Of a stretch of DNA of 64,000 bases, positions 18,422-47,689 are shown piece by piece (position 1 is the stretch's first letter; each line of letters starts with the position of its first letter). Made by a program: the position numbers and the translations under genes. The DNA comes from Magnetospirillum sp. ME-1 (GTDB taxonomy: Bacteria > Pseudomonadota > Alphaproteobacteria > Rhodospirillales > Magnetospirillaceae). The stretch spans positions 3,886,926-3,950,925 of the forward strand of contig NZ_CP015848.1 in the NCBI RefSeq assembly GCF_002105535.1, given 5' to 3'. The notes below the pieces were generated by a model. It saw only the letters and a list, made by a program, of their open reading frames with translations. It did no database searches and was not told the origin of the DNA.

Positions 18422-18467
18422 TGGTGCCGGTTACAGGGTTCGAACCCGTGACCCCCTGATTACAAAT
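18422..18467 (-). repeat. attL: displaced 3' half of the original tRNA-Thr
   Basis: On the minus strand these 46 bases equal the 3' part of tRNA-Thr(UGU), from the anticodon loop to the CCA end, and then sequence identity to the tRNA stops. It differs from the other two copies only at tRNA positions 49 and 65, which pair in the T stem: A-U here, G-C in the others. It is therefore a real allele and most likely the original chromosomal 3' end displaced by integration. Confidence 0.9.
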
Positions 18468-18622
18468 GGCGCAGTATTCGTTGTAGTTGAGTATAGTATT
18501 GACCTAGTAGCGCTGGCCGTATTGCGGCTTTGCTGGCAAAATTGCCAAATAAGTTTGTAGGGTGTGTAGGTGCTGTTGTAGCTACCGCCCCTACTATACC
18601 ACTACTAAGCACGGGGCGCGCC

Positions 18623-19972
18623 ATGTCAGTTACCAGACTTACGAAAAGCACTGTCGATGCTATTCCGTTTAGTGCTTCTGGACAAGCCATTTATAAAGAC
18701 AGCCAACTTAAGGGATTTGGCCTCAAGGTCGGGATCGGCACCAAGACCTACATCGCCGAGGGTTCGCCCAACGGTCGCTCGCGGCTGGTGACCATCGGGC
18801 GCCACGGGGTCATCACCACCGAGCAGGCCCGCAAGAAGGCCAGCCCATTGCGGGAGGGCATCGACCCCAACAAGGTCAAGAAGCAGGCCCGCGCCAAGCA
18901 ACTGACCCTGGCCGAGGCTGCCGAGATATACCTCGACGCTCCGAAGGTCCGGGCTCCCGCCACCCTGGCCGAATATCGGGCGACCCTGCAACGGTACTTC
19001 CGGGACTGGCTCGCCCGCCCGCTGTCGGAGATCACCCGCAAGGACTGCTACGGCCGTCACCGCAAGATCGGCAAGGAGCGGGGCACCTACGCGGCCAACG
19101 GCGCCATGCGGATGATCCGCGCCACCTACAACCGGGCTCTCAAGCAGTTCGAAGACCTGCCGCCCGTGAATCCGGTCATTGCCGTGGATTGGTACCCGGA
19201 GGAGGCGCGGGACGCCGCCATCGCCGCCGAGGATTTGGCCGAATGGTACCAGGGCATCCACCGCCTGCCCAATCCGATCCGCACGGACTACTACCTGTTC
19301 GTGCTGCTGTCCGGTCTGCGCCGCCGGTCGGCGGCCGTCATGCGGTGGGAGCATGTGGACCTTCGGGCCGGAACCTTGTTCATCCCCGAGCCCAAGGGCG
19401 GCAAGAAGCGCGCCTTCAGTCTGCCGTTGTCGGACATGATGGTGGATGTGCTGGCAAAGCGCAGGGAACAAAACGTGATCTTTTATGGTGCCGATAACCC
19501 GTGGGGCTGGCCTGCGGCGTCTCGCCCCGGTCACATGGTCGAGCCCAAGCTCAGCGACAACGATGAGAAGCTGGTCAAGGTGCCGTTCACCATCTGCATC
19601 ACTGTGACCGGCCGGAAGCCTGACCTGCATGTGAAAGCCGTCGTGGAGATCATGGCTGGCTTCTGGAAGTCGGCAACCGGCAGCGACATTACCCAGGCAT
19701 TCGATAAACATAATGAGCCAACATCACCGGCGGCCCACTTCATCTGTGGCGTTATGGAGTATTGCGCAGGGGAAAGTGTCCGCTATTTGCGCTCCAGCAT
19801 CGAAACTCAGATGAAGAAGTACATCGCTGCCTTGCCGGAGGACGTAAAACGTTCGGCACGGGAGGCCAGAGCCGCCAAGAACCAGGAAAAGCGTGACGCG
19901 GGGAAGGCTAAGAAAAAGGCCTTGCGCGATGCTGAGAGGGCAGGGCTTAAGGGATTGGCAACACCCTGCTGA
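18623..19972 (+). CDS. Tyrosine recombinase with missing catalytic C-terminus (probably inactive)
   Basis: Residues ~1-90 match the arm-binding N-terminal domain of tRNA-type integrases (KDSQLKGFGLKVGIGTKTYI, LVTIGRHGVITTEQARKKA). Residues ~95-190 are the SAM-like core-binding domain, and the first catalytic motif is present as LSGLRRRSAAVMRWEHVDL (Arg ~232). After SRPGHMVEPK (~residue 312), where the HxLR(R/H) and tyrosine motifs should follow, the sequence becomes unrelated (KVPFTICITVTGRKPDLHVK), ending in a Lys/Ala/Arg-rich tail. Neither HxxR nor the YxxH nucleophile region is visible. It lies about 155 bases inside attL. ATG 18623 is used; the frame opens earlier. Confidence 0.75.
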   Translation: MSVTRLTKSTVDAIPFSASGQAIYKDSQLKGFGLKVGIGTKTYIAEGSPNGRSRLVTIGRHGVITTEQARKKASPLREGIDPNKVKKQARAKQLTLAEAAEIYLDAPKVRAPATLAEYRATLQRYFRDWLARPLSEITRKDCYGRHRKIGKERGTYAANGAMRMIRATYNRALKQFEDLPPVNPVIAVDWYPEEARDAAIAAEDLAEWYQGIHRLPNPIRTDYYLFVLLSGLRRRSAAVMRWEHVDLRAGTLFIPEPKGGKKRAFSLPLSDMMVDVLAKRREQNVIFYGADNPWGWPAASRPGHMVEPKLSDNDEKLVKVPFTICITVTGRKPDLHVKAVVEIMAGFWKSATGSDITQAFDKHNEPTSPAAHFICGVMEYCAGESVRYLRSSIETQMKKYIAALPEDVKRSAREARAAKNQEKRDAGKAKKKALRDAERAGLKGLATPC

Positions 19973-19978
19973 TCCGGG

Positions 19979-20006
19979 ACGGCCCGACCCACCCAGGTCG
20001 GGCCGT
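19979..20006 (+). terminator. Terminator-like hairpin after recombinase 1
   Basis: ACGGCCCGACC pairs perfectly with GGTCGGGCCGT around a six-base loop, starting a few bases after the stop. The following sequence (TGTCGTTTCC) is only partly T-rich. Confidence 0.6.
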
Positions 20007-20189
20007 TGTCGTTTCCGCCCAGGCCCATGGCCCGGTGCCCTGGGGGCACGTGGCAAGCAGCCTTAAACGGGGCCGTCGAGAGTCACCGGGCGGCCCGCAC
20101 AGGCCCGGTGGCGGTGCGGTGGCCGGCGTGGTGTTGGGGGAGGTCGGAGGGGCTTGGAAAGGCTGATGTGGGAACCGTCTGCAAAGAGG

Positions 20190-20849
20190 TCACCTGTGCT
20201 GGTCTTTTCCATAGACACTGGTGAAGGTGACATTCAGTCCCCCGCATCTACTATTGTCGGCGGCAATCAGCCATTCACCGACGAGGCTGAGGTTGATCTT
20301 GCAGGCACCATCCTCAATGCGAATCTGATTGCCGAGCGGCATCGCAGTTCCTTCAACGCTGCCGGTATGCGGGGCCGGGCCGTCGCCCCAATGGGCGGTG
20401 CCATAGACCGCAACAGTTCCTGACTTCGGACCCAACCCGATATGGAGGCGGCTCCGATCGTTCGCCCAATTTCCCAGCCAAGCATCCAGGTCTGGGTGAG
20501 GGTTTGGCGTAACGATGTTCAGTTGTTTCTTTGGCAGCCAGCCGATGACCGGAGCCTTGCCGACATCCTTGAAATAGACGCAGACCCAGTCGTCGTTTGT
20601 TTGGTTCGTGAGGAGGCGATCGCCAGGAACCAAATAGGTGTCACGGCGACAGCCTTCCGCAGGGCACATCTCTCCGCGATCATGGAAGTATATGCGGGAC
20701 GACTCTTTGCCAATTACGGTCGCCGAGCGGAACTGATCACCTGGGCTTGCCTCGAAAAAGTACGACTCGCAACGTTGTTCGGCCAGTGCCAAGTTGGAAA
20801 AACCGCCAATCATCAAGAGAGCGGTCGCGAACCGAGTTAGATCGATCAT
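20190..20849 (-). CDS. Secreted protein of unknown function (219 residues)
   Basis: An N-terminal signal peptide is clear: MIDLTRFATALLMIGGFSNL then ALA-EQ, with likely cleavage after ALA. The mature part has about eight cysteines (for example RCESYFF, EMCPAEGCRR, VCVYF, GACKINL, SRCGGL), suggesting disulfides. The segment TYLVPGDRLLTNQTNDDWV followed by VIGWLPKKQL looks like a bacterial SH3-like fold. ATG 20849 is chosen because GAGG precedes it; a TTG at 20861 is possible. It shares the minus strand with the muramidase but is separated by 90 bases. No specific family is recognised. Confidence 0.7.
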   Translation of the reverse strand: MIDLTRFATALLMIGGFSNLALAEQRCESYFFEASPGDQFRSATVIGKESSRIYFHDRGEMCPAEGCRRDTYLVPGDRLLTNQTNDDWVCVYFKDVGKAPVIGWLPKKQLNIVTPNPHPDLDAWLGNWANDRSRLHIGLGPKSGTVAVYGTAHWGDGPAPHTGSVEGTAMPLGNQIRIEDGACKINLSLVGEWLIAADNSRCGGLNVTFTSVYGKDQHR

Positions 20850-20939
20850 TTTGCGCCTCAATGGCTGGGTAAAATAGGGTATCTCACAAGAAGGGTGCTG
20901 CGCCCGATACGGGCATTGCGGCGCGAATAAGATCCCTGT

Positions 20940-22553
20940 TCATTGCCGAAATCCTCTGGCGCGGTTGAGCCACCCATTCAAGAAGCGAGCTTGGCTCGGG
21001 TCCTGCTGCACCAATCTCCTGTAATAAGCCTCGCGCTGGTCAACGATCGCATTGTTGATTGCCTTCAATTGTTCGGGCGTTGCGTTGTTTAAGGCCGCGA
21101 TGGTTTTGTCGCCAATCACGCCATCGGTTTCGAGATTTGCTCCTGGAATTGTGCTGTTAATGGCATTTTGCACCATCTTTCCGGCTGCACCAGGTGAATG
21201 ATTGACGCCCAGGTCAAATACCTGGTGGGCAATATTATCATCCAGAATGTTTCCAATTCGGCGTTCGTCATAGTACTCTTTTTTGTAAATCGCCTTTGCT
21301 TGTTCTTGGGTAAGGTCCTTGACCTCGATTGCGCGTCCTCCTTCCCCGAGGCCGCCGTTTTTCTTCTGGTAGGAATCCAAGGTGGCTTTTGTGATTCCAT
21401 AATTAGTCTCGCCACCACGGTCAATCGGGTCGTTTGAATAGCCACCTTCTCTATTGAGTGTGGCTTCGCTTAATCCATCATTTATGGTTCCGGTATTGGC
21501 CTGGGCCACTTGAGTGAGGGGGTGGCCGGTCTGCCGCTCCACATTGTCCCGCCAAGTGCCGAGCAGTTCCGATTCCGAATAGGAGCGCCCTTGAGGAGTG
21601 GGTCGGGGCTGCATCAGCCCTTCCTGCTCCATGCGGGTGCGGAACGGATCGGCGGAGGCGGAATTGCGGTTGCGCAGTTCCTGCGTCACCGCCTCGATCT
21701 CGGCGCTGGTGCCGTGGGGATCGGACTGGGCCTGGGTGGCGTAGTGTTGCGCCACGCCGTCGAAATTGCCGCGCCCGTCCACGGTGTCGGCCATGCTGCG
21801 CGCCTGCCACCAGTCGGCCTGGGGGGCTTGTGCCGCCTGGGCCGCCTTGGCGGCGCGCAACTGCTCGCCCTGCTCCCACACCTTGTCGGGAATCTTGGGG
21901 AACTTGAATTCGGGATCGGGGGTCAGGGGATCGTCGCCGCCACTCAGCCGCTCCAGCAGGCTTCCCCGCTGAGCCTGGGGCTGCGGCCGGAATGCCCGCG
22001 TATCTGTGGTGCCGAAGTCCGAGTGAAGCGCTCCGCCGTCAGCAGCCTCCATGCCGCCGAACAGATTCTTCGGGGCGGCCACGTCCCGGCCGCTGCCGAT
22101 GCTGGACGGAGCGTCGGCGATGCCCGAGGCCAGCGACAGGGGCTGATCGCCGCCCTGGAGCTTGGCCAGATCGCCCAAGGGCTGCCAGGACGGTGCGGCC
22201 ATTCCAAGGTCGGTGCCGAAGCCCGAGCCGATATCGTCGAGCAGATTGGTGGTGAACGTGGGCGTGGGGGCCAGATTGGTCGCCGCCTCGCCCAACCCGT
22301 CCAGCAGGTTGCCGGACGAGGTGGCCGCGCTACCGGCATTGGCCGCCGCGTTGCCCAGTCCGTCCAATAGGCCGGGGACGATTTCCGATGCTGAACTCGC
22401 CGCCGCCGCGCCCGACCCGACAGAGGCCCCGGCGTCGAGCGCCGAGGTCAGCCCGGCCCCCATTTGTTCCAGCAGCCCCGCGCCACCGGAGGTGCCTGCC
22501 GCCAGACCAGCGCCTTCCGCGCCGGCCAATGATAGTTCCGCGAAGCCTCCCAC
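20940..22553 (-). CDS. Phage-like structural protein with C-terminal GH108 muramidase domain
   Basis: About 370 N-terminal residues are Gly/Ala/Ser/Pro-rich with low complexity and no recognisable domain, resembling virion or tail-associated proteins. Residues ~385-535 match the GH108 lysozyme family with its C-terminal peptidoglycan-binding domain: the catalytic Glu in NREGGYSNDP, GGETNYGITKATLD, DLTQEQAKAIYKKEY, VFDLGVNHSPG and DGVIGDKTIAALN. It cleaves the glycan strand of peptidoglycan. A GTG start at 22553 is preferred because AGGAG lies seven bases upstream; the frame opens earlier through a nine-base G/C homopolymer (22573-22581). Confidence 0.72.
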   Translation of the reverse strand: MGGFAELSLAGAEGAGLAAGTSGGAGLLEQMGAGLTSALDAGASVGSGAAAASSASEIVPGLLDGLGNAAANAGSAATSSGNLLDGLGEAATNLAPTPTFTTNLLDDIGSGFGTDLGMAAPSWQPLGDLAKLQGGDQPLSLASGIADAPSSIGSGRDVAAPKNLFGGMEAADGGALHSDFGTTDTRAFRPQPQAQRGSLLERLSGGDDPLTPDPEFKFPKIPDKVWEQGEQLRAAKAAQAAQAPQADWWQARSMADTVDGRGNFDGVAQHYATQAQSDPHGTSAEIEAVTQELRNRNSASADPFRTRMEQEGLMQPRPTPQGRSYSESELLGTWRDNVERQTGHPLTQVAQANTGTINDGLSEATLNREGGYSNDPIDRGGETNYGITKATLDSYQKKNGGLGEGGRAIEVKDLTQEQAKAIYKKEYYDERRIGNILDDNIAHQVFDLGVNHSPGAAGKMVQNAINSTIPGANLETDGVIGDKTIAALNNATPEQLKAINNAIVDQREAYYRRLVQQDPSQARFLNGWLNRARGFRQ

Positions 22554-23045
22554 GGCATGACTCCTTTGCGTTGGGGGGGGGCTCGTAACACCATAAGGAT
22601 TGCTGCGGAACGAATCAAGAATATTATGCTTATATTCCTTAATATTCCCAGTTTTCGGATGCTGATATGACAAAATACCGCGAAGCCGCGCGCCCTGCGG
22701 CGATGGGCCATGAGGAAAGGCGGGATGCGATGCCGGTGGCGCAGGGGCGGTAGGGCTGCGACCAACCGCCTATTACAGCCCTATTAAGCCCAAACCCCAC
22801 CATCAGGGGGGGCGGGGGCTTGCTGGCTAACAGACGGCATTGCGCAATATAAGGTAGTGTTCCCGAGGAGACCCGACCGTCTCCACCAAGCCCGCAATCC
22901 CCGCCTGGGCATCCCGTGCAGGCTCGCAAATAGCCCCAAACCACCCCCCAGCCCCACTTGCCCTACTTTTACCCTACTAACGCAAAAAGCCAGCCCGTTG
23001 CCGTGGCTGACTTTTATCTAATGAATTGTATAATAAGGTAAATTT
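22554..23045. other. Intergenic stretch at the right end of element 1
   Basis: About 490 bases without a convincing gene. It holds a nine-G run (22573-22581 on the plus strand), other G- and C-rich runs, and an A+T-rich part near 22985-23045. No coding frame with a good ribosome site is seen. Confidence 0.5.
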
Positions 23046-23091
23046 TGGTGCCGGTTGCAGGGTTCGAACCCGCGACCCCCTGATTACAAAT
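23046..23091 (-). repeat. Middle att: tRNA-Thr 3' fragment between the two elements
   Basis: These 46 bases are identical to the 3' part of the intact tRNA-Thr at 47614-47659 and differ from the 18422 copy at two bases. Identity ends after ATTACAAAT. It marks the junction of two tandem elements. Confidence 0.92.
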
Positions 23092-23244
23092 TTGAAGTTT
23101 GATCACGACGTCATCCGCAATAAGCCACAATAGACCGCTAAAACCCAGGAAAGTTAGGCGTGGCATCCGACACTCGCCGCCATTGCCCCGCCCTATTATG
23201 GTTGCTAGAATGGCATATTAGCAACCAAGTGCGGGGAAGCAGTC

Positions 23245-24573
23245 ATGCCGACCAATTCACGCAAGGCCGAAGTCACGGTGAGCGTTGTCGATGCAATGCG
23301 CCCCGGTTCGCTGGTTTGGGACACAAAGGTTGCGGGCTTCGCCATTCGGTGCCAGACAAGGGCCAAGGTCTATGTCCTCAAGTACCGGGTCGGCGGGCGC
23401 CAACGGTGGTTCACCATAGGCAAGCATGGCTCGCCCTGGACGCCTGAGACTGCGCGGAAGGAAGCCCGGAAGCTGCTGGGGCTGGTTGCCGACGATAAAG
23501 ATCCGGCGCAAACCAAGGAGGCCAGTAAGACCGCCATGCTGATGGCCGATGCCGCCAGCAAATTTCTAGAGGAACATGCCGAGGCGAAGCGCAAGGCCAG
23601 GACCGCTGAGGGCTACCGCGACATTCTTAATCGGATTGTGGTCCCAGCCATCGGTTCGCTTCGGGTGAAGGATGTTCAGCGGGCAGACATTGCGAAGCTG
23701 CACCATTCATTGCGGGCCACACCGTATCAGGCCAATCGAGTTTTGGCGGTCCTGTCCAAGCTGTTCAATCTGGCGGAAACCTGGGGCGAGCGGACAGATG
23801 GCACCAACCCATGTCGCCATATCGAGAAGTTTAAGGAGTCCAAGCGGGAGCGGTTCCTGTCTGCCGATGAATTGGCTGCGTTGGGGGAAGTGCTGGCCGC
23901 CTATAAGGGCTCGCCCTATGTGGCCGCCTCAATCAAATTGCTGGTGTTTACCGGGGCGCGGCTACAGGAAATTCTCACTTTGCGTTGGGAATGGATCGAC
24001 TTCGCCAAGAACGAGGTGCGCTTGCCGGATTCCAAGACGGGCGCGAAGACCCTGCACCTTCCCCCGCCAGCGATGGCGGTCCTTGCGGATTTGCCCCAGA
24101 TCGACGGAAACCCGTTCGTCATTGTTGGCGGCAAAGATGGCGCTTGCCTTGTGAACCTTGAAAAGCCGTGGCGTGTCATTCGGCAGGCCGCAACCGTCCG
24201 CCTTTGGCGTGACCACGAAAAAATGGGGCCGCTTGTCCAGGGGTTGGCCGAGAAGCATGAGCGGGCGTCGACCTATGCGGAATGCCAGAAAGCGGCGGAG
24301 GATGCTGGAATTGAATTGCCGGGCGGAATGGATGATGTGCGCATCCACGATTTGCGCCATGCCTTCGCGTCCGTTGCGGCCTCCGCTGGTCTGGGGCTTC
24401 CTATTATCGGCAAGATGCTGGGGCATTCACAACCCCAAACAACCGCCCGCTATGCGCACCTTGCCGCCGATCCGGTGAAGGCCGCACAAGCGGCGGTTGC
24501 GGGAGCCATTGCCGCCGCCATGAGCAGAAATCCTGCAGCCGAGGTGGTGCAGCTTCCTCAGCGGAAGGCATGA
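23245..24573 (+). CDS. int: Tyrosine recombinase / tRNA-type site-specific integrase
   Basis: The 442-residue integrase has the arm-binding N-terminal domain (VWDTKVAGFAIRCQTRAKVY, WFTIGKHGSPWTPETARKEA), the core-binding domain (~100-200), and a full catalytic set: Arg in VFTGARLQEILTLRWEWIDF (~residue 239), HDLRHAFASVAA (~368-371), LGHSQPQTTARYAHL with the tyrosine near residue 404. It recombines attP with the tRNA-Thr attB. It lies about 150 bases inside the middle att and reads away from it, the usual arrangement. Apparently intact, unlike the recombinase in element 1. Confidence 0.93.
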   Translation: MPTNSRKAEVTVSVVDAMRPGSLVWDTKVAGFAIRCQTRAKVYVLKYRVGGRQRWFTIGKHGSPWTPETARKEARKLLGLVADDKDPAQTKEASKTAMLMADAASKFLEEHAEAKRKARTAEGYRDILNRIVVPAIGSLRVKDVQRADIAKLHHSLRATPYQANRVLAVLSKLFNLAETWGERTDGTNPCRHIEKFKESKRERFLSADELAALGEVLAAYKGSPYVAASIKLLVFTGARLQEILTLRWEWIDFAKNEVRLPDSKTGAKTLHLPPPAMAVLADLPQIDGNPFVIVGGKDGACLVNLEKPWRVIRQAATVRLWRDHEKMGPLVQGLAEKHERASTYAECQKAAEDAGIELPGGMDDVRIHDLRHAFASVAASAGLGLPIIGKMLGHSQPQTTARYAHLAADPVKAAQAAVAGAIAAAMSRNPAAEVVQLPQRKA

Positions 24574-24687
24574 GTGTCCCCGTGGCCCCTATGTGTTAGT
24601 CGGCAGTTGTAGCCCCGACAACCGCCATTGAGGCTGAAGGTCCGCTATGGCTCCGTTGTGCCAATTTGAGACTGTGGTGGTCATGGA

Positions 24688-26625
24688 TCAGGCCGTGTAT
24701 TCGCGCATCAACGCGTCAAGCCCCGCAATGACTGCTTGGGACTGCTCCTCCAGCCTCTGATAGCGGTCACGGGCTTCCGAAAGCTGTTGCTTTTCTAGGG
24801 CGATCAGCACATTGCGACCCGTAGTGTGGACCGGGCGGTGCAGGTCAAGCAGCTTCTTGAAAGCAGAAAGCGCCATCATGTGGTCGTCGGTGACATTGTC
24901 GTACCAACGGCCCAGACGGCAGGTGTGGTGGGTGCTCAGTTCCGACGGCAACAGCGCGACCTTGCCCTCCACCGCGTCTGCGATTCGTCTGACGAACTGC
25001 CGGTGATCCTCCTTGGTCGTCTCCAGTAGGCGGCCGATACTGCTCTTGGAAAGGGAATCGACCTTGGCAGTGGGCAGGGCTCCTTCGACGAAGTGCATAT
25101 GGTAGAAGGCATCGGTTGCTGCCGAGATCTCGGCGCGAATTTCCACTCCGTCCCCTGGAATAACGAGCAGGACACTTGCCCCACGGGCCAGGGCCGAACC
25201 GCTAGGATTGGTGACCATGGCGCCGCCCTCAGACAGGTCATGGATCTGGGCCGTGATTACGCGTCCCCCTTGGCGGATCTCTGCGTCTAACATGGCAGCC
25301 CGGCGGGGACCCTTGCGCCGATTGGCGAATTCCGAGGAGGTACGTACCGCCTTAATCAGCAGCTTGCGCATACCGTTCAAGGATTCGTCCATGCGCACGG
25401 CACTTTCGTTGACCGCAACCGAGGCGTTGTCAGCCTTGGACACGCTGTCCTCAACCGAGCGCATGCGCCGCTTGACCTCTTCCGCCTGCTCAGCGGTGAC
25501 CCCCACAGTGCGGGCGATCTCGCTAGTCGCGGCGGTCTGCTCCTCCACAGCCGCAGCGATGCCAGAGCTTACTTCCTCCATGCCATGGATCGCCTCAGAC
25601 ACAGTCGCCATCATGGCGGTGGTGTCGTTGGCGACCTCCTGGATGGTAGTAATTTTTTCGGTAATGTCCTCGGTAGCCCGTGCCGTCTGGTTGGCTAGAT
25701 TCTTTACCTCGTTGGCCACCACCGCAAAGCCTTTTCCCGCCTCCCCCGCGCGGGCCGCCTCAATGGTAGCGTTCAAGGCCAGCAGGTTGGTCTGGGCAGC
25801 GATGTCGCGGATTAGGGCTAGGACGTCGCCGATCTCCTGTGCAGCTGAGCCCAACCGGACGATCACATGACGGGCGTCGCTCATGCTCGCCGCCGCCGAC
25901 TGTGCGGCAGTCGAGGAGCGTCCAACCTGGGCGGAGATCTCGGCGATGGAGGCGTGCAACTCTTCCGCCGCCGCCGCTACTGTCTGTGCCGAGCACGATG
26001 CACTTTCCGCTGAGGATGAGGCGATCTCGGCGTCGGCGCTCACCTCCTGGGTGACACTTGACATAGTATGTGCGCTGTTAACTAGATCCTCAGTCAAGTG
26101 GGCGACGCTTTCCAGCGTGTCCGCCACCTGCTTATCGATCCGCTCGACCATGACGCCGATCCCCTGTTCCGCCTGTTCCAGGCGATGACAGGCGACATTG
26201 ATGGCCTCCACATAGCCCCGGTAGTCGTTGTTCATGCCTTCGGGCCGGATGGTCCTCTTGAACCGGCCGTGAGAGGCCGCCTCCAGGGCGCCCCTGACCT
26301 CGCGTGCGAATGATTCTACCTTATCGGCGGCAGCGTTGAAGTTCTCGCTCAGGGCATGGACGTCTCCGCCATCCGACAGCCAAACCATGCGGCTGTTGAG
26401 GTCGCCGTCTGCTAGGGCAGCCAAGGCCCTGGAGGCCTCACTCACGCGGGCAGCGCTCCTGCGGTTCCACAGGATTGCGGACCCGGTGAGGGCGGTAGCA
26501 ACCATGGCCAGGACCCCGGCCATGGTGTTGCCCGCCACAAGGCAGGCGATTCCCGCCAACATGGATGCCAGTCCAGCGGCGAGGCTCGCCGCGAAGGATT
26601 TAGAGAGAGAAGACAAGGTCTTCAT
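24688..26625 (-). CDS. Methyl-accepting chemotaxis protein with PilZ and CZB domains
   Basis: The 645-residue receptor has two hydrophobic segments (~residues 10-50) and no periplasmic sensor between them. A HAMP-like linker leads to a signalling domain whose hairpin tip reads [20 protein letters not shown] (~residue 295). After the signalling domain are a PilZ-like domain ([10 protein letters not shown] and DLSEGGAMV, c-di-GMP-binding type) and a C-terminal CZB zinc-binding domain ([13 protein letters not shown] with later LHRPVH). The combination links taxis to c-di-GMP and to zinc or oxidant sensing. Its start overlaps the end of the PAS gene upstream by 26 bases, so the two are coupled. 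Confidence 0.88.
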
Positions 26626-38239: not shown

Positions 38240-38283
38240 TACCCCGACCGCAGGTTGTGGGCTGATATCCCCGCCTCAGAGCG

Positions 38284-38988: not shown

Positions 38989-39927
38989 TTGTCATCCACC
39001 GTGATCTATAGCCATCAGGTCTGCCTTGAGCACGACACAGGCGAATTTCATCCCGAATGCGCAGACCGCCTTAGGGCCATTTCCCATATCTTCGACCGCG
39101 AGGAATTCATGTATGTTCCGCGCGAAGAGGCTCCCCGTGGAACGCTGGAGCAAATCCTGCGGGCGCATCCCCAGGACCATTACGACATGGTGATGGATTC
39201 CGTCCCGGCCGAGGGCTGCATCGAACTGGACGGCGACACCATGCTGTCGCCCAAATCGGGCGAGGCCGCCTTGCGTTCGGTGGGCGCCGCCTGCGCCGCC
39301 GTGGACGAAGTGGCCACCGGGCGCAGCCGCAACGCCTTTTGCGCCACGCGGCCGCCCGGCCACCATGCCGAGCGCAACGCCGCCATGGGTTTTTGCCTGT
39401 TTTCCAATGCTGCCATTGCCACCTTGCACGCCCGCGATGTCCATGGCTTCAAACGGGTGGCGGTGATCGACTTCGATGTCCATCACGGTAACGGCACCCA
39501 GGACGTTCTATGGAACGAGTCCGGCACCATGTATGTGTCGTCTCATCAGGAGGATGCCTTCCCCTATACCGGTAAGGCCGAGGAAACGGGGCCAGAGGGT
39601 GGTTGTGTGGTGGTCAATGTCCCTCTACCGGCCGGAACGGCGTCGGAAGCATTCCGCGCCGCCTATACGGATGTCATCCTGCCTAAGCTCGACGCATTCA
39701 AACCGGATTTCATGATCATTTCTGCGGGATTCGACGCCCATGCGGCCGATCCCATGGCCCATCTTCGGCTGCAGGTGGCGGATTTCGAATGGCTGACCCG
39801 GCAATTGCTGGCCGTTGCCAAGACCCACGCCGAACGCCGGGTTGTCTCGTTGTTGGAAGGCGGGTATGACACGCGCGCCCTCGCGGCATGCGTCGCCGCC
39901 CATGTCCGCGTCCTGATGGAAGGTTAA
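38989..39927 (+). CDS. Histone deacetylase-like amidohydrolase (acetylpolyamine/HDAC family)
   Basis: The Zn-dependent deacetylase family of arginase/HDAC fold is shown by RPPGHHAERNAAMGFCLFSN (His-His charge relay), VIDFDVHHGNGTQDVLW (Zn ligands Asp and His), SAGFDAHAADP (third Zn ligand) and LEGGYDTRAL (catalytic Tyr). The 312-residue length fits class II bacterial members that deacetylate polyamines or other acetylamides. TTG 38989 is preferred because GGAG lies eight bases upstream and the preceding in-frame sequence looks non-coding. The next bacteriohemerythrin starts 3 bases after the stop, so they form an operon. Confidence 0.88.
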   Translation: MSSTVIYSHQVCLEHDTGEFHPECADRLRAISHIFDREEFMYVPREEAPRGTLEQILRAHPQDHYDMVMDSVPAEGCIELDGDTMLSPKSGEAALRSVGAACAAVDEVATGRSRNAFCATRPPGHHAERNAAMGFCLFSNAAIATLHARDVHGFKRVAVIDFDVHHGNGTQDVLWNESGTMYVSSHQEDAFPYTGKAEETGPEGGCVVVNVPLPAGTASEAFRAAYTDVILPKLDAFKPDFMIISAGFDAHAADPMAHLRLQVADFEWLTRQLLAVAKTHAERRVVSLLEGGYDTRALAACVAAHVRVLMEG

Positions 39928-39930
39928 ACC

Positions 39931-40377
39931 ATGAATTTCGTTGAATGGACTGCCGATATGTCGGTGGGCAGCAACGCCCTGGATGACCATCACAAGATGA
40001 TCATTGATTGCCTGAACGCGCTGCATCCCATGCTCGAATCTGACGCTCCGGAGGCTAAGGTCCTGGCGGTCATGGCCAAGCTGGAGGACTTCGTCCTTGT
40101 TCATTTCAGCGAGGAAGAGCGCGATATGAAGCAGGCGGGTTATCCCGACTGGCGCGAACACAAGAAATTACACGACGAGATGTATGACGTGGTGTTCTCC
40201 CTTAAGTCGGATATAGAACGGGGCGAGAAGGTCGATGCCCAGCGTCTCTTCCAACTGATCCAGAATTGGTTGGTGACCCATATTCTGGGTGAAGACCGCA
40301 AATACGTTCCATTCCTGACGAGCCACACTGCCAAACCGGTCGGGCAGTGGAAGCGGTCAAACGGGCGGGACTGCTAA
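39931..40377 (+). CDS. Bacteriohemerythrin
   Basis: The 148-residue O2-binding di-iron protein has ligands in NALDDHHKMI, LVHFSEEERDM, DWREHKKLHDEM and THILGEDRKY. Its N-terminus (NFVEWTADMSVGSNALDDHH) is typical of stand-alone bacterial hemerythrins. It starts 3 bases after the deacetylase stop, so translation is probably coupled; another bacteriohemerythrin follows 62 bases later. It is the first of a tandem pair. Confidence 0.92.
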   Translation: MNFVEWTADMSVGSNALDDHHKMIIDCLNALHPMLESDAPEAKVLAVMAKLEDFVLVHFSEEERDMKQAGYPDWREHKKLHDEMYDVVFSLKSDIERGEKVDAQRLFQLIQNWLVTHILGEDRKYVPFLTSHTAKPVGQWKRSNGRDC

Positions 40378-40439
40378 TCCAAGACGGAAAGTTTCTCTTC
40401 CCGTCCGGGTGAATGTGTTCGAGATCATTGGAGAATTTG

Positions 40440-40835
40440 ATGGATAGGCTGGGGTGGAGCGATAAATTATCTACGGGTTTTGCAGAGATTGATGAAGACC
40501 ATAAAACCCTTTTTGATTATCTCCATGCCCTAGAGGTGGCCGTCAGAGACCATAATGCGAGCGAAATGGCTAAGGGTATCCTTGGTGAACTGCGCGATTA
40601 CGCTAAATATCATTTTGGCCGCGAGGAAGCTATATTCACCAAGCATGAGGGGTACAAGCTCGTAGCCTTTCATTTGGAGCAGCACCGCCAGTTCGCGGCG
40701 CAGATGGAGACATTCGAGGAACAACTTTCTGCAGACATCGATGTGTCAGCTGAAATGGTGTTCTTTCTCTCCAAATGGCTGGTTCGTCACATCATGACCG
40801 AGGACAAGGTGTTCTTCGATACCTACTCGCCATAG
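40440..40835 (+). CDS. Bacteriohemerythrin
   Basis: The 131-residue protein shows ligands in FAEIDEDHKTLF, KYHFGREEAIF, FHLEQHRQF and RHIMTEDKVF. It is clearly diverged from its neighbour at 39931 and more like the 14395 protein. ATG 40440 has GGAG six bases upstream; a GTG/ATG further upstream (40413) has no support. It follows the deacetylase and the first hemerythrin, and is the last gene before a kinase remnant. Confidence 0.92.
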   Translation: MDRLGWSDKLSTGFAEIDEDHKTLFDYLHALEVAVRDHNASEMAKGILGELRDYAKYHFGREEAIFTKHEGYKLVAFHLEQHRQFAAQMETFEEQLSADIDVSAEMVFFLSKWLVRHIMTEDKVFFDTYSP

Positions 40836-40904
40836 ACAGCCCGATCGACGATCGGCTGCCCAAGACCAGATGTAACCCCGTTTCCACGGGGGTTTGAGTA
40901 TCGA

Positions 40905-41125
40905 ATTCAGGCGGCCAATTTCAGTTTCTGGCGGGTGCAGCCTTCCATCATGCAGTTCGACCAAACTCTTGGTCAGTGACCGACCGAGACCACGGCCTTC
41001 TTGAATGCGAGCCAACCCAGAGGTCCAACTGTCCAAACAGCGACAGGGCCTTGGCGCCGCCGTCCTGATCCATGCCCAAGCCGGTGTCGGCGACGACGAA
41101 CTCCATCCAGCCCTCCCCATGCTGA
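40905..41125 (-). pseudogene. Remnant of a histidine-kinase ATPase domain
   Basis: On the minus strand EGWMEFVVADTGLGMD is the G1 box of a HATPase domain, followed by AKALSLFGQLD. The continuation needed for the G2 box lies in another frame (EGRGLGRSLTKSLVELHDGR), where typical kinases read GTGLGLxLTKSLVELHGG. There is no H box, no start and a frameshift, so this is a decayed 3' fragment of a PAS/hybrid-type kinase. Confidence 0.65.
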
Positions 41126-41156
41126 AGTGGCTGGGGGCAGCCCTAGCCAAAGATTT

Positions 41157-41227
41157 TGCTGCACTGCAACATAAGGCTTGCGCTCGCCTTTGAAGGGTGT
41201 ATAACAGCCTCATGTTGCAGTGCAGCA
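41157..41227. promoter_or_regulatory. Perfect 16-base inverted repeats upstream of phasin (PhaR-like operator)
   Basis: TGCTGCACTGCAACAT (41157-41172) and ATGTTGCAGTGCAGCA (41212-41227) are exact inverted copies 39 bases apart, ending 38 bases before the phasin start. TGC-rich sites of this kind are the known targets of PhaR, the PHB-responsive repressor of phasin genes in alphaproteobacteria such as Paracoccus. The pair could allow cooperative binding or loop formation over the promoter. Confidence 0.72.
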
Positions 41228-41265
41228 GAAAGTGCTGCGGAAACCCAAGCCAAAGGACTTCCCCT

Positions 41266-41613
41266 ATGTCGACCGCCGCTTTCGAACAGATCGCCGCCGC
41301 CACCAAAGCCAATGCCGAAGCCTTGACCCAGAGCGGCAACGCCGCCATCGCCGGTTTCCAGGACTTGGCCAAGGCCTATCAGGCTCTGGCTACCAAAAAC
41401 GCCGAGAAGCTGACCGCCTCCATCCAGGCGCTGGCCACCGTGAAGTCGCCGGAGGAGTTCGCCTCCCTGCAGCAGAAGCTGGTCAAGGAAGCCGTTGACG
41501 CCGCCGTCGCCGACAGCACCAAGATCGCCGAACTGACCACCTCGGTCTTCAATGCCGCTTTCGAGCCGGTGAAGAAGCAGGTCGAGGCCGTGCAGAAGTC
41601 CGTAAAGAAGTAA
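41266..41613 (+). CDS. Phasin family protein (polyhydroxyalkanoate granule)
   Basis: The 115-residue amphipathic helical protein carries the phasin pattern: AAFEQIAAATKANAEALTQS, a short turn, and a helix with LATKNAEKLTASIQALA and SPEEFASLQQKLVKEAVDA. It coats PHA granules and controls their size. AAGGA precedes ATG 41266. It is preceded by PhaR-like inverted repeats and followed by a strong terminator, so it is a single-gene unit induced when PHA forms. No PHA synthase is in the window. Confidence 0.88.
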   Translation: MSTAAFEQIAAATKANAEALTQSGNAAIAGFQDLAKAYQALATKNAEKLTASIQALATVKSPEEFASLQQKLVKEAVDAAVADSTKIAELTTSVFNAAFEPVKKQVEAVQKSVKK

Positions 41614-41651
41614 TCAGGCAGCCCGCCCCGTAAGGGGCGCCACCGAGATTG

Positions 41652-41682
41652 AAGCCGCATCGCCATGGGATGCGGCTTTTTT
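41652..41682 (+). terminator. Rho-independent terminator after phasin
   Basis: AAGCCGCATC pairs with GATGCGGCTT around a seven-base loop, followed by a run of T. Confidence 0.92.
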
Positions 41683-42010
41683 CGTGTTGAGTTATGGGCG
41701 CAAACAAAGGGCCGAGGAATTCTATTCAGGCAATATAGAGGTGGGTCACATTGAGCCCGTAGGCTCCAGCGCGGCATCTGACCGCGACAGTCGCCGTTCA
41801 GGGCGAAGGCCACATATTCGGGTGCCGGAAACGGCGCAGCCGCGCATGTGCATCCCTGAATTTCCCGATGCAACTGGCGCAATAGGTGCAACACCTGTGA
41901 GCCGGGGCTAGACTGACATTGGCGCGGCTAGGTTTGGCCGCTGAAAGCCCGGCTCCGCACTGGGCCGCCGCGCAGATCCATTCATGCGGACAGCACCATG
42001 CGGGTGTGCC
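41683..42010. other. Intergenic stretch, no gene supported
   Basis: About 330 bases between the phasin terminator and the hypothetical gene. It marks the change from host-like cargo to the more A+T-rich right module of element 2. Confidence 0.5.
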
Positions 42011-42826
42011 ATGAAGGTTCCCCATCGAAAATTGCGAAGTGTTGTCGGTCCTGCGCGGACTTACTCCGCCGCAGACATCGCTGCCATCATTGCTGCCATT
42101 CCTGGTGGACTTCCAAGTGGCCCCGTAGATATTCGGCAAGCTTCACCAGATGGTAACGGAAGCATCCCTTGTCTTGTCGATAGGCGGGAGTTGCTCATTG
42201 ACTGTCTTGAGACAGCAGCATCCCGATATTTTACGTGGAAGCACCTAAAAAATTCCGCATCACCGTCCAAAACCGTAAAGAAATTACACGCTATAGAAAC
42301 GGCATCGAAGAAACTTTTAGAAGCACTTGGCTTAGACGACAGCAAATGTGCCGACGACTTACCTGACGATATACCTCATGAAATATTAATACACCTCAAT
42401 AGACAGGCTGAAATTATTTCGGCAGGGATTCGGCAAGCTGCTCGCTTCCGAGAAATTGATGGCGGTGGATATGCTGGGCCGACGGCACTCAGGGAAGCGA
42501 TATTGGGTGTAATGTTTATCAAGGATGCTGCAGCAGATGCGAAAATGATAGTTGATTTACGCGTTGACCCGGATTGCAAGCGGAACAAAGGCGATGAAGA
42601 ATTACGCAGTTTATTTGGCGACCTAATCGGCACTTGGCTTGAAGTATTTGAGCTTCCGATTGCAATGTCTGTGGGCAAGCCCGGTTCCCCTGGGGAGGGG
42701 ATTCCGAGCGGCCCATTCATTAGGTTTATTCAGGCCTGCTTAATGCCGCTAAAAATTGATCTAACGCCTGATGCCATTCGTGACCGCGCCAGACCATTTC
42801 AGGGAATGGGCAAGTTAGTTCCGTAG
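42011..42826 (+). CDS. Hypothetical protein of the element's right module
   Basis: The 271-residue protein has no signal or membrane segment. It is visibly richer in A+T (many ATT, AAA and TTA codons) than host genes. Helical segments such as DIAAIIAAIPG and LHAIETASKKLLEALGLDD dominate, and the C-terminus has the loop VGKPGSPGEGIPSGPFIRF. ATG 42011 is used; ATG 41984 is in frame but poorly supported. It lies before the AlpA-like gene and is probably element-specific. No family is recognised. Confidence 0.6.
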   Translation: MKVPHRKLRSVVGPARTYSAADIAAIIAAIPGGLPSGPVDIRQASPDGNGSIPCLVDRRELLIDCLETAASRYFTWKHLKNSASPSKTVKKLHAIETASKKLLEALGLDDSKCADDLPDDIPHEILIHLNRQAEIISAGIRQAARFREIDGGGYAGPTALREAILGVMFIKDAAADAKMIVDLRVDPDCKRNKGDEELRSLFGDLIGTWLEVFELPIAMSVGKPGSPGEGIPSGPFIRFIQACLMPLKIDLTPDAIRDRARPFQGMGKLVP

Positions 42827-42922
42827 GAAATCTGATCCCGCCATTGCGACAGGCGAATCCGTCAAATCTACTTTTTTACTCGCAGCCGCCACTCTGGCGC
42901 GGCAGAGATGCGAGTGGAAACG

Positions 42923-43129
42923 ATGGCGACCAATATTTACAAGACACAGAATGAAACGGCGGAAATTCTCCGCCTCTCCCCGCGCACCCTCGAACGTCAC
43001 CGTTTGACTGGCACTGGCCCCAAATTCGTTAAGGCCGGGCGACGTGTGTTTTACCGTCCCTCCGATATCGATGCATGGGTGGAAGCCAACACCTTCGCCA
43101 GCACGTCCGAAGTCAAAGCGGCGGAGTAA
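42923..43129 (+). CDS. AlpA/excisionase-like helix-turn-helix protein
   Basis: The 68-residue protein has a winged MerR-type HTH: TAEILRLSPRTLERHRLTG as the helix-turn-helix and KFVKAGRRVFYRPSDIDAWV as the wing, as in AlpA and phage excisionases. It probably directs excision or expression of the element. ATG 42923 is used; ATG 42908 is 15 bases upstream in frame. The large Prim-Pol gene follows after 34 bases. Confidence 0.82.
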   Translation: MATNIYKTQNETAEILRLSPRTLERHRLTGTGPKFVKAGRRVFYRPSDIDAWVEANTFASTSEVKAAE

Positions 43130-43163
43130 GGGCCGTGGAAAGCCTTCATGCTGCTGGTGCGGC

Positions 43164-46100
43164 ATGAACCCCCTATTGGTAGCCTCATTGGAATATGCCG
43201 TCCGTGGCTGGGCGGTTCTTCCCGTTCATTCAATCCGGAATGATGGGATCTGCACCTGCGGCAAGGCGGACTGTCGCAATGTCGGAAAGCACCCCTTGAC
43301 CGCGCACGGCTTGCTGGAGGCATCGACCGACCCCGAGCAAATTCGGCGCTGGTGGCGGCGTTGGCCCTGGGCGAACGTCGCCATCGCCACTGGCGCATCC
43401 GGCTTAGTCGTAATCGATGTGGATGTTGGCATTGACCGTGACGGACATCAGAAGGAAGGCGAGGCGTCTTTAGCTGATCTGGAACGGGATTACGGCCCTC
43501 TGCCAGACACCGTCGAGGCGATAACCGGATCCGGCGGACGACATATCCTGTTCAAGGCGGATGGCGCGTCAATTCCCAGCAAAACGTGGTCATTTGGCGA
43601 CGCGTACCCCTCGCTGCCGGATCTGACGAACGAAGCCTGGGCGCAGTTCCAGGATGAGGCGGATCTGGCTGATGAACGGTGGGGACGGCCCCAGGTCGAA
43701 AGGAAGGCTTCCCAGATCCTGCGGAAGGCCGCCAAGGGCGGTTTCAACCTGACTGAGATCCTGGGCAACAAGCCGCCGGTGCCGCCAACATACGCCAGAC
43801 CCAACTGGGATGGACCGACTGCTGGACGAAAGCTGCGTCGGGTCATTCGAGCTTGGTTCAACCAAGTGGAACGGATCCTGACAGCTAGGGATTGGCGAGA
43901 TCAGGAAGCAATCCGGCTGGCGGCAGAAGCCGTTGGGCAGATCGAAACCCTGATCCATTGGATGTTGATCCTTAATCCGCAACTGACCGAGGCGGATCTA
44001 CAGGCCTATGTCGATGGCCGCCAACGCCGGGCAACCCATGCTGCCAAGCGCAGGTTTAAGCTCCGCAGTCTGACCAAGATGCCACGGATCCAGGTCAAAG
44101 GCGGTGCTGGGCTGGGCAAGTCGATGGCAATCATCGAGGAGTATCTGGTGCGACCGTCGCTGTGGAAACGCCAGATCCGCGTCTACGTCCCGACCATCGC
44201 TCTCGCGGAGGAGTTCGACGCCAAGATCCGTATAGCCGGTGCTGACATTATGGCTATGGACGGTCAGCGGCCCCGATCAATGGTCATGTACGGGCGGACC
44301 TATGGCCGGGAAGAGGGCAAGGCAAAGTGCCATCCTGACCGAATTGCGGCAGTGGCAAAGGGTGAGCGGCTGGTCCCATCAGTGTACAAGACATTCTGCC
44401 ACCGCGAGGGGCAGGATGAGCTTGGATTGTTGCGTCAGATCGACTGTCCGCATCTCGGCTGGTGCAAAATGTCCGGTTACTTGGCGCAATACGCTGATCG
44501 GGGTCCGGCGTTACGGCTGTTTCCCCATACCCACCTGACGCTCACCCAGGCTAACGATCTGAAGCTGCCAGACGCAGATCTGGTGGTGATCGATGAGAAC
44601 TGCATCGACACCCTGTATCAACGATCTGAGATCGACCCGGATTGGCTGACTGCTACCAGCACCTATCACGGTGAAGCCGAGGAGATACAGAACGCGCTCG
44701 ATGTTGGCGGCATTGTCCAGGGCATCATCGCGGCCAATGGCATCGACACTGCGGCTCTCCGCGACAGGGTGACACCCAAGGCTCTGCGGGAGGCGGCGAA
44801 GGCCGCGGATTTCGTTCCGGCTCCTGCCATCAGCCCATCCTCCGGCGATACCGAGATCATGGGGGTGCTGGAAAACTACACTCGCGGCAATGGCCCTCAA
44901 GTGGCGCGAATGCTGCGGCAGCTGGCAAGAGACATCGAGAAAGGCCGCACCACCTCCATCGGCGTCGAATATCAGCCCGACTACAGCGTGACCACCGAGG
45001 ACGGCACTAGGGTCAAGGCGCCGATCGTACGGGTGCACCGGCTGAAGGAGATTTCCGTGGGTAGGCAGACGGCGCTCTGCGTTATCGACGCCGACGCTGA
45101 CCTGGAGATCAACCGGCAGATATTCGGGGATCAGCTGCGTGGCTTCAATCTGCCCGCCATCCGGCGTGGGCGGGTGACCCAGATCCATAACCTGACCTTT
45201 GCCACCAGTGCTCTGGTTCCGCCAGATAAGCTGCCAGCCAATGAAAACAGGGCAGCGTATTCCCGACAGCAGATCGAGCAATTGGTGAAGGCCGAGGTCG
45301 CGAAGGAGCGCAAGGTTCTGGTTGGCGCGGTGAAGCCAGTGCGACTGAAACTGACCGGAGAGACGGCTGGCAAGCTGTCGGTCTGTGCTGAATGGCATGG
45401 CGGCGAGATCACCCATCACGGTGTCGTCCTGGGGGTTGGTCGCTGGGAAAGGTATGACACGGTGATTGTTGTTGGCCGCGAGCAAATGCCGCCCAGCGCA
45501 GCCGAGGGACTGACACGGGCGGTCTATGCCGACGCCGCACCGGACGTTCAGATCCAGTTCACCGGCACATATGTCAGGGAGATTCGCGGCTACGACATGC
45601 GGTCTGGCGTCCATGCGCCTGGAGTGCAGGTTTCGGTCCATCCGGATTGGCGCGTCCAGCAGCTGCTGGAACTGAAGCGAGAGCAGAAGCTGGCGCAGCT
45701 GATCGACCGGCTGCGGCTGCTGCATCCTGATCAACGGGATCCGGAGATCATCATCCTGACCAACCTGCCAATACCGGGCATCGTCGTGGATCGGCTGATG
45801 AGCGCCAAGGATCTGTTCGCTGGCGGCACGGTCTGGGAGCAGGCGATAGAGCGGACGGGCTGCGGTGTCCTGCCGCTTGCCAAGGAATGGCTGTTTCAGA
45901 ACCTGCCGGACCTGTTCGGATCCCCCAGAACTGCAGCCAGACAGGTGAAATGCCTAAAGAGTGCCAATTCCCAATTAGTACCTAATTACAGAATGGCACT
46001 CTTTCGACATTCCGATCAGAGGGCTTGGTCCTGGGCGCTGGTGGAGCGGTCTATTTCAGATGGAAGCGCCCGGCTGACCACCCTGTTGGGCAAGCCCGTC

Positions 46101-46514
46101 GTTGCGTTCAGATATGCCGCTGAGGATGCCCGCCAGAGCCAGGAGGAAGCCCCAGGAAGGCAGGAGCCGCCAGCTTCACCAGCGCCCCCCGCAGCGAAAT
46201 TTGCAGATTGCAAAGCAGACCCACCGCGAGGGGTGGTCATTCACATCCTGGGGCAGGCAACGCTGTTTGGCGTCGAACCCGATCAGGTTGTCACCGTCGA
46301 TCTGCCGGATCACGGCCTGATCCCCGACGATGTTCGCACGATTATCAAGTCCGAGATCAGGCGCCGTGGGCTAACCCAGGATGCTGCGGCTCGGCGTATG
46401 GGAGTGTCCCGCCCCCAACTGAGCAACGCCCTAATGGGTAGATTCGGCCTTTCTGTCGAAGCAATGCAGGGTCTGCGGGGCTTCATTGAGAACAGGCCAG
46501 AACAGACCGCATAA
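43164..46514 (+). CDS. Large Prim-Pol/ATPase/HTH replication-type protein of a mobile element
   Basis: The 1116-residue protein begins with a bifunctional primase/polymerase-like domain: LEYAVRGWAVLPVHSI, a Cys/His insert CTCGKADCRNVGKHP, ANVAIATGASGLVVIDVDVG with the metal-binding DVD, and TGSGGRHILFK (~residues 8-130). The rest of the Prim-Pol domain is not obvious. Walker A is GGAGLGKSMAI (~312) and a Walker B-like ADLVVIDEN lies near residue 473, suggesting a helicase-type ATPase. The last ~50 residues hold an XRE-type HTH (GLTQDAAARRMGVSRPQLSN). Combined primase, ATPase and DNA-binding parts fit an autonomous replication protein. The start ATG 43164 has only a weak ribosome site. Confidence 0.75.
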   Translation: MNPLLVASLEYAVRGWAVLPVHSIRNDGICTCGKADCRNVGKHPLTAHGLLEASTDPEQIRRWWRRWPWANVAIATGASGLVVIDVDVGIDRDGHQKEGEASLADLERDYGPLPDTVEAITGSGGRHILFKADGASIPSKTWSFGDAYPSLPDLTNEAWAQFQDEADLADERWGRPQVERKASQILRKAAKGGFNLTEILGNKPPVPPTYARPNWDGPTAGRKLRRVIRAWFNQVERILTARDWRDQEAIRLAAEAVGQIETLIHWMLILNPQLTEADLQAYVDGRQRRATHAAKRRFKLRSLTKMPRIQVKGGAGLGKSMAIIEEYLVRPSLWKRQIRVYVPTIALAEEFDAKIRIAGADIMAMDGQRPRSMVMYGRTYGREEGKAKCHPDRIAAVAKGERLVPSVYKTFCHREGQDELGLLRQIDCPHLGWCKMSGYLAQYADRGPALRLFPHTHLTLTQANDLKLPDADLVVIDENCIDTLYQRSEIDPDWLTATSTYHGEAEEIQNALDVGGIVQGIIAANGIDTAALRDRVTPKALREAAKAADFVPAPAISPSSGDTEIMGVLENYTRGNGPQVARMLRQLARDIEKGRTTSIGVEYQPDYSVTTEDGTRVKAPIVRVHRLKEISVGRQTALCVIDADADLEINRQIFGDQLRGFNLPAIRRGRVTQIHNLTFATSALVPPDKLPANENRAAYSRQQIEQLVKAEVAKERKVLVGAVKPVRLKLTGETAGKLSVCAEWHGGEITHHGVVLGVGRWERYDTVIVVGREQMPPSAAEGLTRAVYADAAPDVQIQFTGTYVREIRGYDMRSGVHAPGVQVSVHPDWRVQQLLELKREQKLAQLIDRLRLLHPDQRDPEIIILTNLPIPGIVVDRLMSAKDLFAGGTVWEQAIERTGCGVLPLAKEWLFQNLPDLFGSPRTAARQVKCLKSANSQLVPNYRMALFRHSDQRAWSWALVERSISDGSARLTTLLGKPVVAFRYAAEDARQSQEEAPGRQEPPASPAPPAAKFADCKADPPRGVVIHILGQATLFGVEPDQVVTVDLPDHGLIPDDVRTIIKSEIRRRGLTQDAAARRMGVSRPQLSNALMGRFGLSVEAMQGLRGFIENRPEQTA

Positions 46515-46542
46515 CAGGACGGTATCTGGTCAACAGCAACGG

Positions 46543-47334
46543 ATGAACCTGATGAAAAAGCGCAAGGCACCATCATCCTCTGTCCAACCTAATGTTACAG
46601 CGAACGAACAGGCTCGGACGCCGGATGAGCAGGCGCTGGTCGATTCCTTCGCTCGGCGCCCAAAGCTTGCCCGGCCTGTCCAGTTCAAGAAGGGTGAGAA
46701 GGAAGGCCAGTTGAGTTGCCGCGAATCCGACCACGAACTCGCAGCGGCAAGGGCGGCAAAATCCTGTGGCGTGGGTGAAAGCGATCTGGCTGACGCACTG
46801 CTGATGCAACTGATCGATCTGGACAGGACAGCGGCTAAGGCCGATCCGGTTAAAGCTGCTAATAAGGCGATGGCCTGGATTCATGGGATCAGCCCTAACG
46901 ACCCAACCGAGGCCATGCTGGCGGCCCAGATGATTGCCAGTCATCAACTCGCGATGAACTGCTTCACACGGGCCATGCTTCCTGATCAGTCATTCGAGGC
47001 CCGTCATGCCAATCTACGTCAAGGAGCCAAGCTGTCGAGGCTCTATGCCGACCAGATGCAAGCCCTCGCCAAATACCGGAACCGAGGCCAACAGACTGTT
47101 CGGGTCGAACACGTCACGGTGAACGGTCATGCCAACTTTGGCACGGTGAATCAAGCCACGAGCCCCAAGCCGGGGGAGGGGGCGATGGTTGAAAACGGAG
47201 TGCAACCCCATGAGCAACAGCCTGCCGCCATTCCTTTCACCCCTGTCGCCCCGGTGTGGAGCGAAGACCAGAGCGGGCAGTCCCTGCCAGGGACCGGCGA
47301 TGCCGAATGGGCGTTGCCGCCTGCACGGCGGTAA
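46543..47334 (+). CDS. Hypothetical phage-type protein
   Basis: The 263-residue basic, helical protein (263 with ATG 46543; ATG 46552 and 46486 are alternatives) ends in a segment YADQMQALAKYRNRGQQTV followed by EHVTVNGHANFGTVNQ. That segment is known from proteins of integrated elements in alphaproteobacteria. No catalytic motif is seen. It follows the Prim-Pol gene directly, and its 3' end overlaps the next gene in another frame. Confidence 0.65.
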   Translation: MNLMKKRKAPSSSVQPNVTANEQARTPDEQALVDSFARRPKLARPVQFKKGEKEGQLSCRESDHELAAARAAKSCGVGESDLADALLMQLIDLDRTAAKADPVKAANKAMAWIHGISPNDPTEAMLAAQMIASHQLAMNCFTRAMLPDQSFEARHANLRQGAKLSRLYADQMQALAKYRNRGQQTVRVEHVTVNGHANFGTVNQATSPKPGEGAMVENGVQPHEQQPAAIPFTPVAPVWSEDQSGQSLPGTGDAEWALPPARR

Positions 47335-47482
47335 ATCACCCGGCGCCCCGACCGGCAGGGCCAACGGGAATTACCGGACAGGCTACTGGACAAAGGAAGC
47401 CGTTGCCGAACGGCGGCATATGGCTCGGATGATTAGGGAAATGCGAAGGGAGTGGGCCAACACGAAGACTGAGTTGGGGTGA
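47210..47482 (+). CDS. Small HGG-motif hypothetical protein
   Basis: The 90-residue basic protein has CGAKTRAGSPCQGPAMPNG then CRLHGGKSPGAPTGRANGN, a Cys/His motif found in many phage and island proteins of alphaproteobacteria. GGAG precedes the ATG. It overlaps the 3' end of the preceding gene by 125 bases in a different frame, a layout repeated in such elements. The function is unknown. It is the last gene before the tRNA-Thr. Confidence 0.7.
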   Translation: MSNSLPPFLSPLSPRCGAKTRAGSPCQGPAMPNGRCRLHGGKSPGAPTGRANGNYRTGYWTKEAVAERRHMARMIREMRREWANTKTELG

Positions 47483-47613
47483 GTTTTTGAGGGCGGTATG
47501 CCTGTAGCCAGTTGGCAGTCAATTCACCGCCCATAATCCCAGTCCATGGTTGCTATGTGGTAGCTAAAAATTTAAAGAGAGCTAGGTCTCTATGTCTAAC
47601 CCCTTGAAATAGT

Positions 47614-47689
47614 TGGTGCCGGTTGCAGGGTTCGAACCCGCGACCCCCTGATTACAAATCAGGTGCTCTACCAGCTGAGCTAAACCGGC
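47614..47689 (-). tRNA. tRNA-Thr(UGU), integration site (attR)
   Basis: The 76-base cloverleaf has acceptor stem GCCGGTT/AACCGGC, anticodon loop TTTGTAA (anticodon UGU), T arm GCGGG/CCTGC and an encoded CCA. Its 3' 46 bases are repeated at 18422 and 23046. The intact copy is the one rebuilt by the element's own 3' half. Confidence 0.96.

Follow-up and report, generated by a model that had tools for sequence, protein, structure and literature searches.

A probable tandem pair of tyrosine-integrase islands in the tRNA-Thr(UGU) gene of Magnetospirillum sp. ME-1

Two genomic islands with tyrosine integrases very probably sit as a tandem pair at the anticodon loop of the sole tRNA-Thr(UGU) gene found in Magnetospirillum sp. 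ME-1 (G000; 4,551,873 bases in one contig), a genome in which a single full-length match to this gene was obtained. They were studied in a window, a stretch of 64,000 nucleotides, to which the positions in Table 1 refer. Three copies of the tRNA end border the islands, and these copies, their order, their alleles and the genes between them can be read directly from the window. The attP of each island would carry the 3' half of the tRNA, about nucleotides 32–76; integration would push the 3' half of the host to the far end, and the incoming half would complete the tRNA. The left copy would then be the native half with its A49-U65 pair, the middle copy that of island A and the right copy that of island B, irrespective of the order of arrival. 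The interest of the locus lies in an apparently recurrent swap of tRNA halves, of which the lineage of this genome holds an unusually clear record.

Table 1. Features of the tRNA-Thr(UGU) locus (positions in the window)
Feature	Positions	Strand	Basis
Displaced original 3' half of tRNA-Thr (A49-U65), probable outer att	18422..18467	-	repeat match; A-U also in mlaA-proximal copies of G010, G001, G013
Island A body, 4.6 kb	18468..23045		interval between att copies
Tyrosine integrase A, catalytic C-terminus lost or replaced	18629..19972 (frame opens at 18530)	+	PF13356, partial PF00589; PHROG integrase to residue 289 of 447
Hypothetical protein	20190..20861	-	no Pfam, PHROG or PADLOC match
GH108/peptidoglycan-binding endolysin-like protein	20940..22673	-	PF05838, PF09374; PHROG endolysin
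Middle att, putative 3' half from island A (G49-C65)	23046..23091	-	repeat match
Island B body, 24.6 kb	23092..47613		interval between identical att copies
Tyrosine integrase B, intact by motif	23245..24573	+	PF00589 positions 2-169 of 172, PF13356
Chemoreceptor (MCP, PilZ, CZB), cargo	24688..26700	-	Pfam
PAS-domain protein, cargo	26600..27127	-	Pfam
Response regulator-hemerythrin protein, cargo	28015..28950	+	Pfam
Type I secretion genes (HlyD, ABC, OEP, minus strand) and FecR/RTX protein (plus strand), cargo	29607..37208		Pfam
SDR, histone-deacetylase-like and two hemerythrin genes, cargo	37556..40835	+	Pfam
HTH_17 excisionase-like regulator	42908..43129	+	PF12728; PHROG 66, excisionase and transcriptional regulator
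Primase/polymerase (Prim-Pol) protein	43044..46514	+	PF09250; PHROG primases
Working tRNA-Thr(UGU), complete gene: host 5' part and putative 3' half of island B (47614-47659, G49-C65)	47614..47689	-	ARAGORN

Three copies of the tRNA end and the DNA between them

An earlier note on this DNA had placed three copies of the 3' 46 bases of tRNA-Thr at 18422, 23046 and 47614 in the same orientation. A pattern search with up to three mismatches allowed returned these three copies, all + in the window, and in 100 dinucleotide shuffles no match was found, none being expected by chance. The middle and right copies have no mismatch to the tRNA 3' half and are identical over the 46 bases, as the note had said, while the left copy has two, solely at tRNA positions 49 and 65. 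These positions pair with each other, A-U in the left copy versus G-C in the other two. Beyond the 46 bases the sequence is unlike at each of the three copies, and the two intervals are different DNA, each with an integrase of its own. The note had further described a recombinase gene just inside each left-hand att; one is seen for both islands, that of A being probably inactive.

The integrase of island A yields an Arm match and a Phage_integrase match limited to positions 17-98 of 172, below the curated Pfam cut-off. In an alignment of the catalytic motifs (23 integrase proteins minus those of L097 and L107, which are shorter than 251 amino acids) its R and K regions are present, the HxxR box is absent, and H and RY letters reach the last motif columns only via large gaps, which leaves it without the full catalytic set of R, K, HxxR, H and Y. 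Among the matches listed, alignments with relatives from plasmids and phages reach no further than residue 345 of 447, and not one of 28 plasmid and 12 phage records covers 80% of the protein; no relatives were found in viral contigs. Island A, with an integrase damaged in this way, appears to be a decayed remnant. Compared with the 16 other genomes of the genus it gave only matches of 34-60 bases, in five of them.

All catalytic columns are present in the integrase of island B, and judged from its sequence this island is predicted to be still able to excise between its two identical att copies. Its cargo resembles genes located elsewhere in the genomes of relatives. The secretion genes have 86% DNA identity to a stretch of G010 (C1:4144127-4151709) whose neighbouring DNA is 90-92% identical to a different part of G000, and no second copy of these secretion genes in G000 was among the matches listed. 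For the right-hand module of the island, short stretches of up to about 460 bases (65%) match in four of the 16 other genus genomes. No relaxase or conjugation genes were found among 20 proteins searched with Pfam, and PADLOC gave nothing convincing as defence cargo for nine proteins of the window, with one weak match, that of the chemoreceptor.

The position of the recombinase was followed in 20 loci with relatives of integrase B (30-56% identity). A fragment consisting of a T arm plus CCA occurs within 450 bases upstream of the integrase match in 18 of them, each time antisense to the integrase, and elsewhere in these loci, over 103,273 bases, the same test gave three hits. In 16 of the 20 a clean 3' fragment of a tRNA lies 132-240 bases upstream in uniform orientation; these are not 16 independent cases, L095 and L096 as well as L100 and L101 being near-duplicates; left out of this count are L089, with a whole tRNA-Lys, and L103, with a fragment at the wrong spacing, and in L091 and L107 the test found no such fragment upstream of the integrase. 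From the anticodon loops, which were read by eye, the fragments include Thr(UGU), Thr(CGU), Lys and others. At the tRNA-Thr itself an integrase lies just inside the displaced copy and reads away from it in islands A and B as well as in G013 and G038. Together with the 16 relatives, these two genomes show that a recombinase just inside the att is a recurrent layout. No integrase of the integrase-B family was found in the fetched stretches of G010, G001, G004, G037, G030 and G032; in G010 the DNA at tRNA-Thr (L068 5785-8037) holds a frame resembling a type III restriction enzyme. In G019 one half of tRNA-Thr lies next to an integrase (L157 12440-12488) and is inverted relative to the tRNA on that contig.

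The mlaA junction and the alleles of the family

A tree of rpoB from 16 genomes, G011 having no rpoB match, places G010 next to G000 (100/100), and the two belong, together with G013, G001, G006 and G007, to a clade of six (100/100). The junction of mlaA with the tRNA could be assessed in five of the 16 other genus genomes and is occupied in G010, G001 and G013 and without a displaced copy in G007 and G016. In all four genomes which show a displaced copy beside mlaA (G000 and the three occupied ones) this copy has A49-U65. Beyond it G000 and G010 share an identical run of 25 bases, and the island-side bases next to it differ among the four. The uniform allele and the shared flank point to the mlaA-proximal copy as the native tRNA-Thr 3' end, and displacement of the original half of the host to 18422, as the earlier note had proposed, is the best reading of the locus. 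Identity between displaced copy and tRNA begins at nucleotides 28-32 in G000, G010, G001, G004 and G013, which corresponds to an anticodon-loop subsite.

The working tRNA has G-C at 49-65 in G000, G001 and G013, displaced copy and tRNA of the last being on separate contigs. That of G010 has A-U there but G67, which gives a U6-G67 wobble where its displaced half would give U6-A67; the same working half occurs in G044, G040 and G049, where the 5' part carries C6. G004 is reversed, with displaced G-C and working A-U, and its mlaA is on a different contig.

The earlier note had predicted a related genome in which mlaA directly adjoins a tRNA-Thr with the A-U pair, and no such close empty site was found among the five assessable junctions. 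The sole empty junction is that of G016, where the tRNA ends 51 bases from the mlaA match and has G49-C65. To the letter this is the empty-site relative with the G-C allele which the note had named as counter-evidence; its allele says little about the lineage of G000, however, because G016 lies outside the close clade of the rpoB tree and has a different type of tRNA, with another anticodon stem and 83% identity. G007, inside the clade, has G-C; its mlaA and tRNA are separated by 1.7 kb of other DNA, and as evidence on the native allele its locus is ambiguous. G006 also belongs to the clade and has another tRNA-Thr(UGU) type with a different anticodon stem (L074 6205-6280), mlaA being far away; perhaps the whole gene was replaced there.

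For a wider survey 55 genomes of the family were searched and a tRNA-Thr(TGT) locus was obtained in 47, the exceptions being G009, G014, G024, G031, G034, G043, G048 and G052. Among 46 tRNAs (the 75-base tRNA of G035 is left out of the allele counts) the pair 49-65 is G-C in 29 and A-U in 17, and the working 3' half of G000 is the commonest, shared by nine including G000. Displaced copies were seen at at least 10 of the 47 loci, a lower bound as fetched stretches and contigs end. Six of these ten loci have compensated T-stem differences between displaced and working half, comprising seven pairs (G000, G001, G013, G004, G023 and, with two, G038). When the same numbers of changes were placed at random the mean was 0.15 compensated pairs and seven were reached in none of 200,000 trials, in a control which treats all positions alike while some tRNA positions vary more than others. 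One uncompensated stem change each was found in G032 and G023; the displaced copy of G037 is identical to the tRNA, that of G010 differs at 67 alone, and that of G030 looks decayed.

These data allow three other accounts of the locus to be weighed. Displaced copies are free to drift, and those of G032 and G030 look drifted, so the A49-U65 pair might be decay after integration and not an older allele. The left copy has just two changes, however, and they compensate each other, an outcome which two random substitutions in the 45 positions 32-76 gave in 0.0023 of trials; moreover A-U is the working pair in 17 of the 46 family tRNAs and the displaced pair in G038 as well as in G010, G001 and G013. 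Decay is thus very improbable and was rejected on these grounds. Very improbable too is a local duplication of the tRNA end in which mobile elements played no part. Such an event can in principle produce direct repeats of a tRNA end, but the flanks differ at every copy, an integrase gene opens each interval, and G013 and G038 have the identical layout with other DNA. The unrelated DNA between the copies led to rejection of this account, and it likewise excludes the local duplication without intervening DNA which the earlier note had listed as a finding that would count against its reading.

It is less far-fetched, if still unlikely, that A and B came together as a ready-made tandem composite which was excised from the tRNA-Thr of another host and integrated once. 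The identity of the middle and right copies over 46 bases would fit such an event, but as their common 3' half is the most frequent one in the family, separate arrivals explain it equally, and the damaged look of integrase A beside an intact integrase B suggests different ages.

Proposed exchange of tRNA halves

In displacement of a native half by an incoming one, the compensated pair distinguishes a native allele that was displaced from a repeat that has decayed. Comparison of the displaced with the working half in several related genomes suggests that islands change the tRNA of their host and do not merely hide there. The pair 49-65 appears to have flipped from A-U to G-C in G000, G001, G013 and G038 and from G-C to A-U in G004. 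With flips in both directions and the chimeric tRNA of G010, we lean towards the view that in this family the 3' half of the host's single tRNA-Thr(UGU) is rewritten time and again by island traffic and not only by point mutation, the displaced halves being fossils of the previous allele.

A half-by-half control, whose outcome counts against this broad view, was made with the 12 genus genomes whose retrieved stretches include all three of tRNA-Thr, tRNA-Tyr and tRNA-Gly. Per site, the differences in the 5' and then the 3' part were 0.086 and 0.101 for Thr, 0.000 and 0.124 for Tyr, and 0.005 and 0.007 for Gly; this does not show the 3' part of tRNA-Thr to be unusual, the 5' part being almost as variable at the depth of the genus. 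In the six close genomes (G000, G010, G001, G013, G007, G011) the values were 0.011 versus 0.047 for Thr and 0.000 versus 0.113 for Tyr, so that the contrast in Thr is clear in this close set only, and the 3' figure of Tyr is higher there too. The tRNA-Tyr thus combines a constant 5' part with a variable 3' part; the tRNA-Gly follows about 100 bases downstream in G000. In the tRNA-Tyr of G013 (L071 13795-13880) and G011 (L080 3663-3748) the variable arm and T arm differ, and the first 31 bases match those of four relatives.

The pair 49-65 is one of the three T-stem pairs which influence EF-Tu binding most (PMC8219837). Because of this strong influence an island might bring about a slight change in how tRNA-Thr is used.

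Relation to known systems

Phage satellites and primase-bearing integrative elements are known to combine an integrase, an excisionase-like HTH protein and a Prim-Pol protein. Island B differs from phage satellites in its long cargo, which is like chromosomal genes of relatives, and in that no packaging gene was recognised: among 20 proteins tested with Pfam and 10 with PHROGs there was no clear packaging or helper-hijacking gene, the HTH protein matching a small terminase weakly.

As with the anticodon-loop tRNA integrases treated in PMC8371274, the probable crossover region is at the anticodon loop and an intact tRNA is reconstituted. From the excerpts of that source nothing essential separates the two cases, integrase B being a bacterial tyrosine recombinase with an Arm domain. 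The same paper describes how integration of SSVK1, in a non-specific event, turned a tRNA-Glu gene into tRNA-Asp. There as here the sequence of the regenerated tRNA was altered by integration, but the identity of the tRNA changed in SSVK1, whereas at the present locus a T-stem pair is exchanged and the anticodon stays as it was. In a literature search on tRNA change by islands, covering mainly titles and abstracts, none was found to report a compensated T-stem swap.

The closest counterpart is the tandem tDNA island of the Islander collection. In tDNA islands which enter the 3' part of a tRNA gene the native 3' half is moved to the distal end (PMC4383910), and the Islander table has 125 tandems of two or more islands and 2083 anticodon-site islands among 3919 (PMC4383910). 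As in those tandems, the locus consists of a complete tRNA gene with 3' fragments in the same orientation on its correct side. Each island has its own tRNA fragment and integrase reading frame, that of A without a recognisable second catalytic half, and the lengths between att copies, 4.6 and 24.6 kb, fall within the range of 2-200 kb. It differs in that integrase A is damaged and in the compensated pair between displaced and working half, such pairs not being discussed in the excerpts of PMC4383910. The arrangement as a whole is of a well-known and catalogued kind, a textbook pair of tandem tRNA islands.
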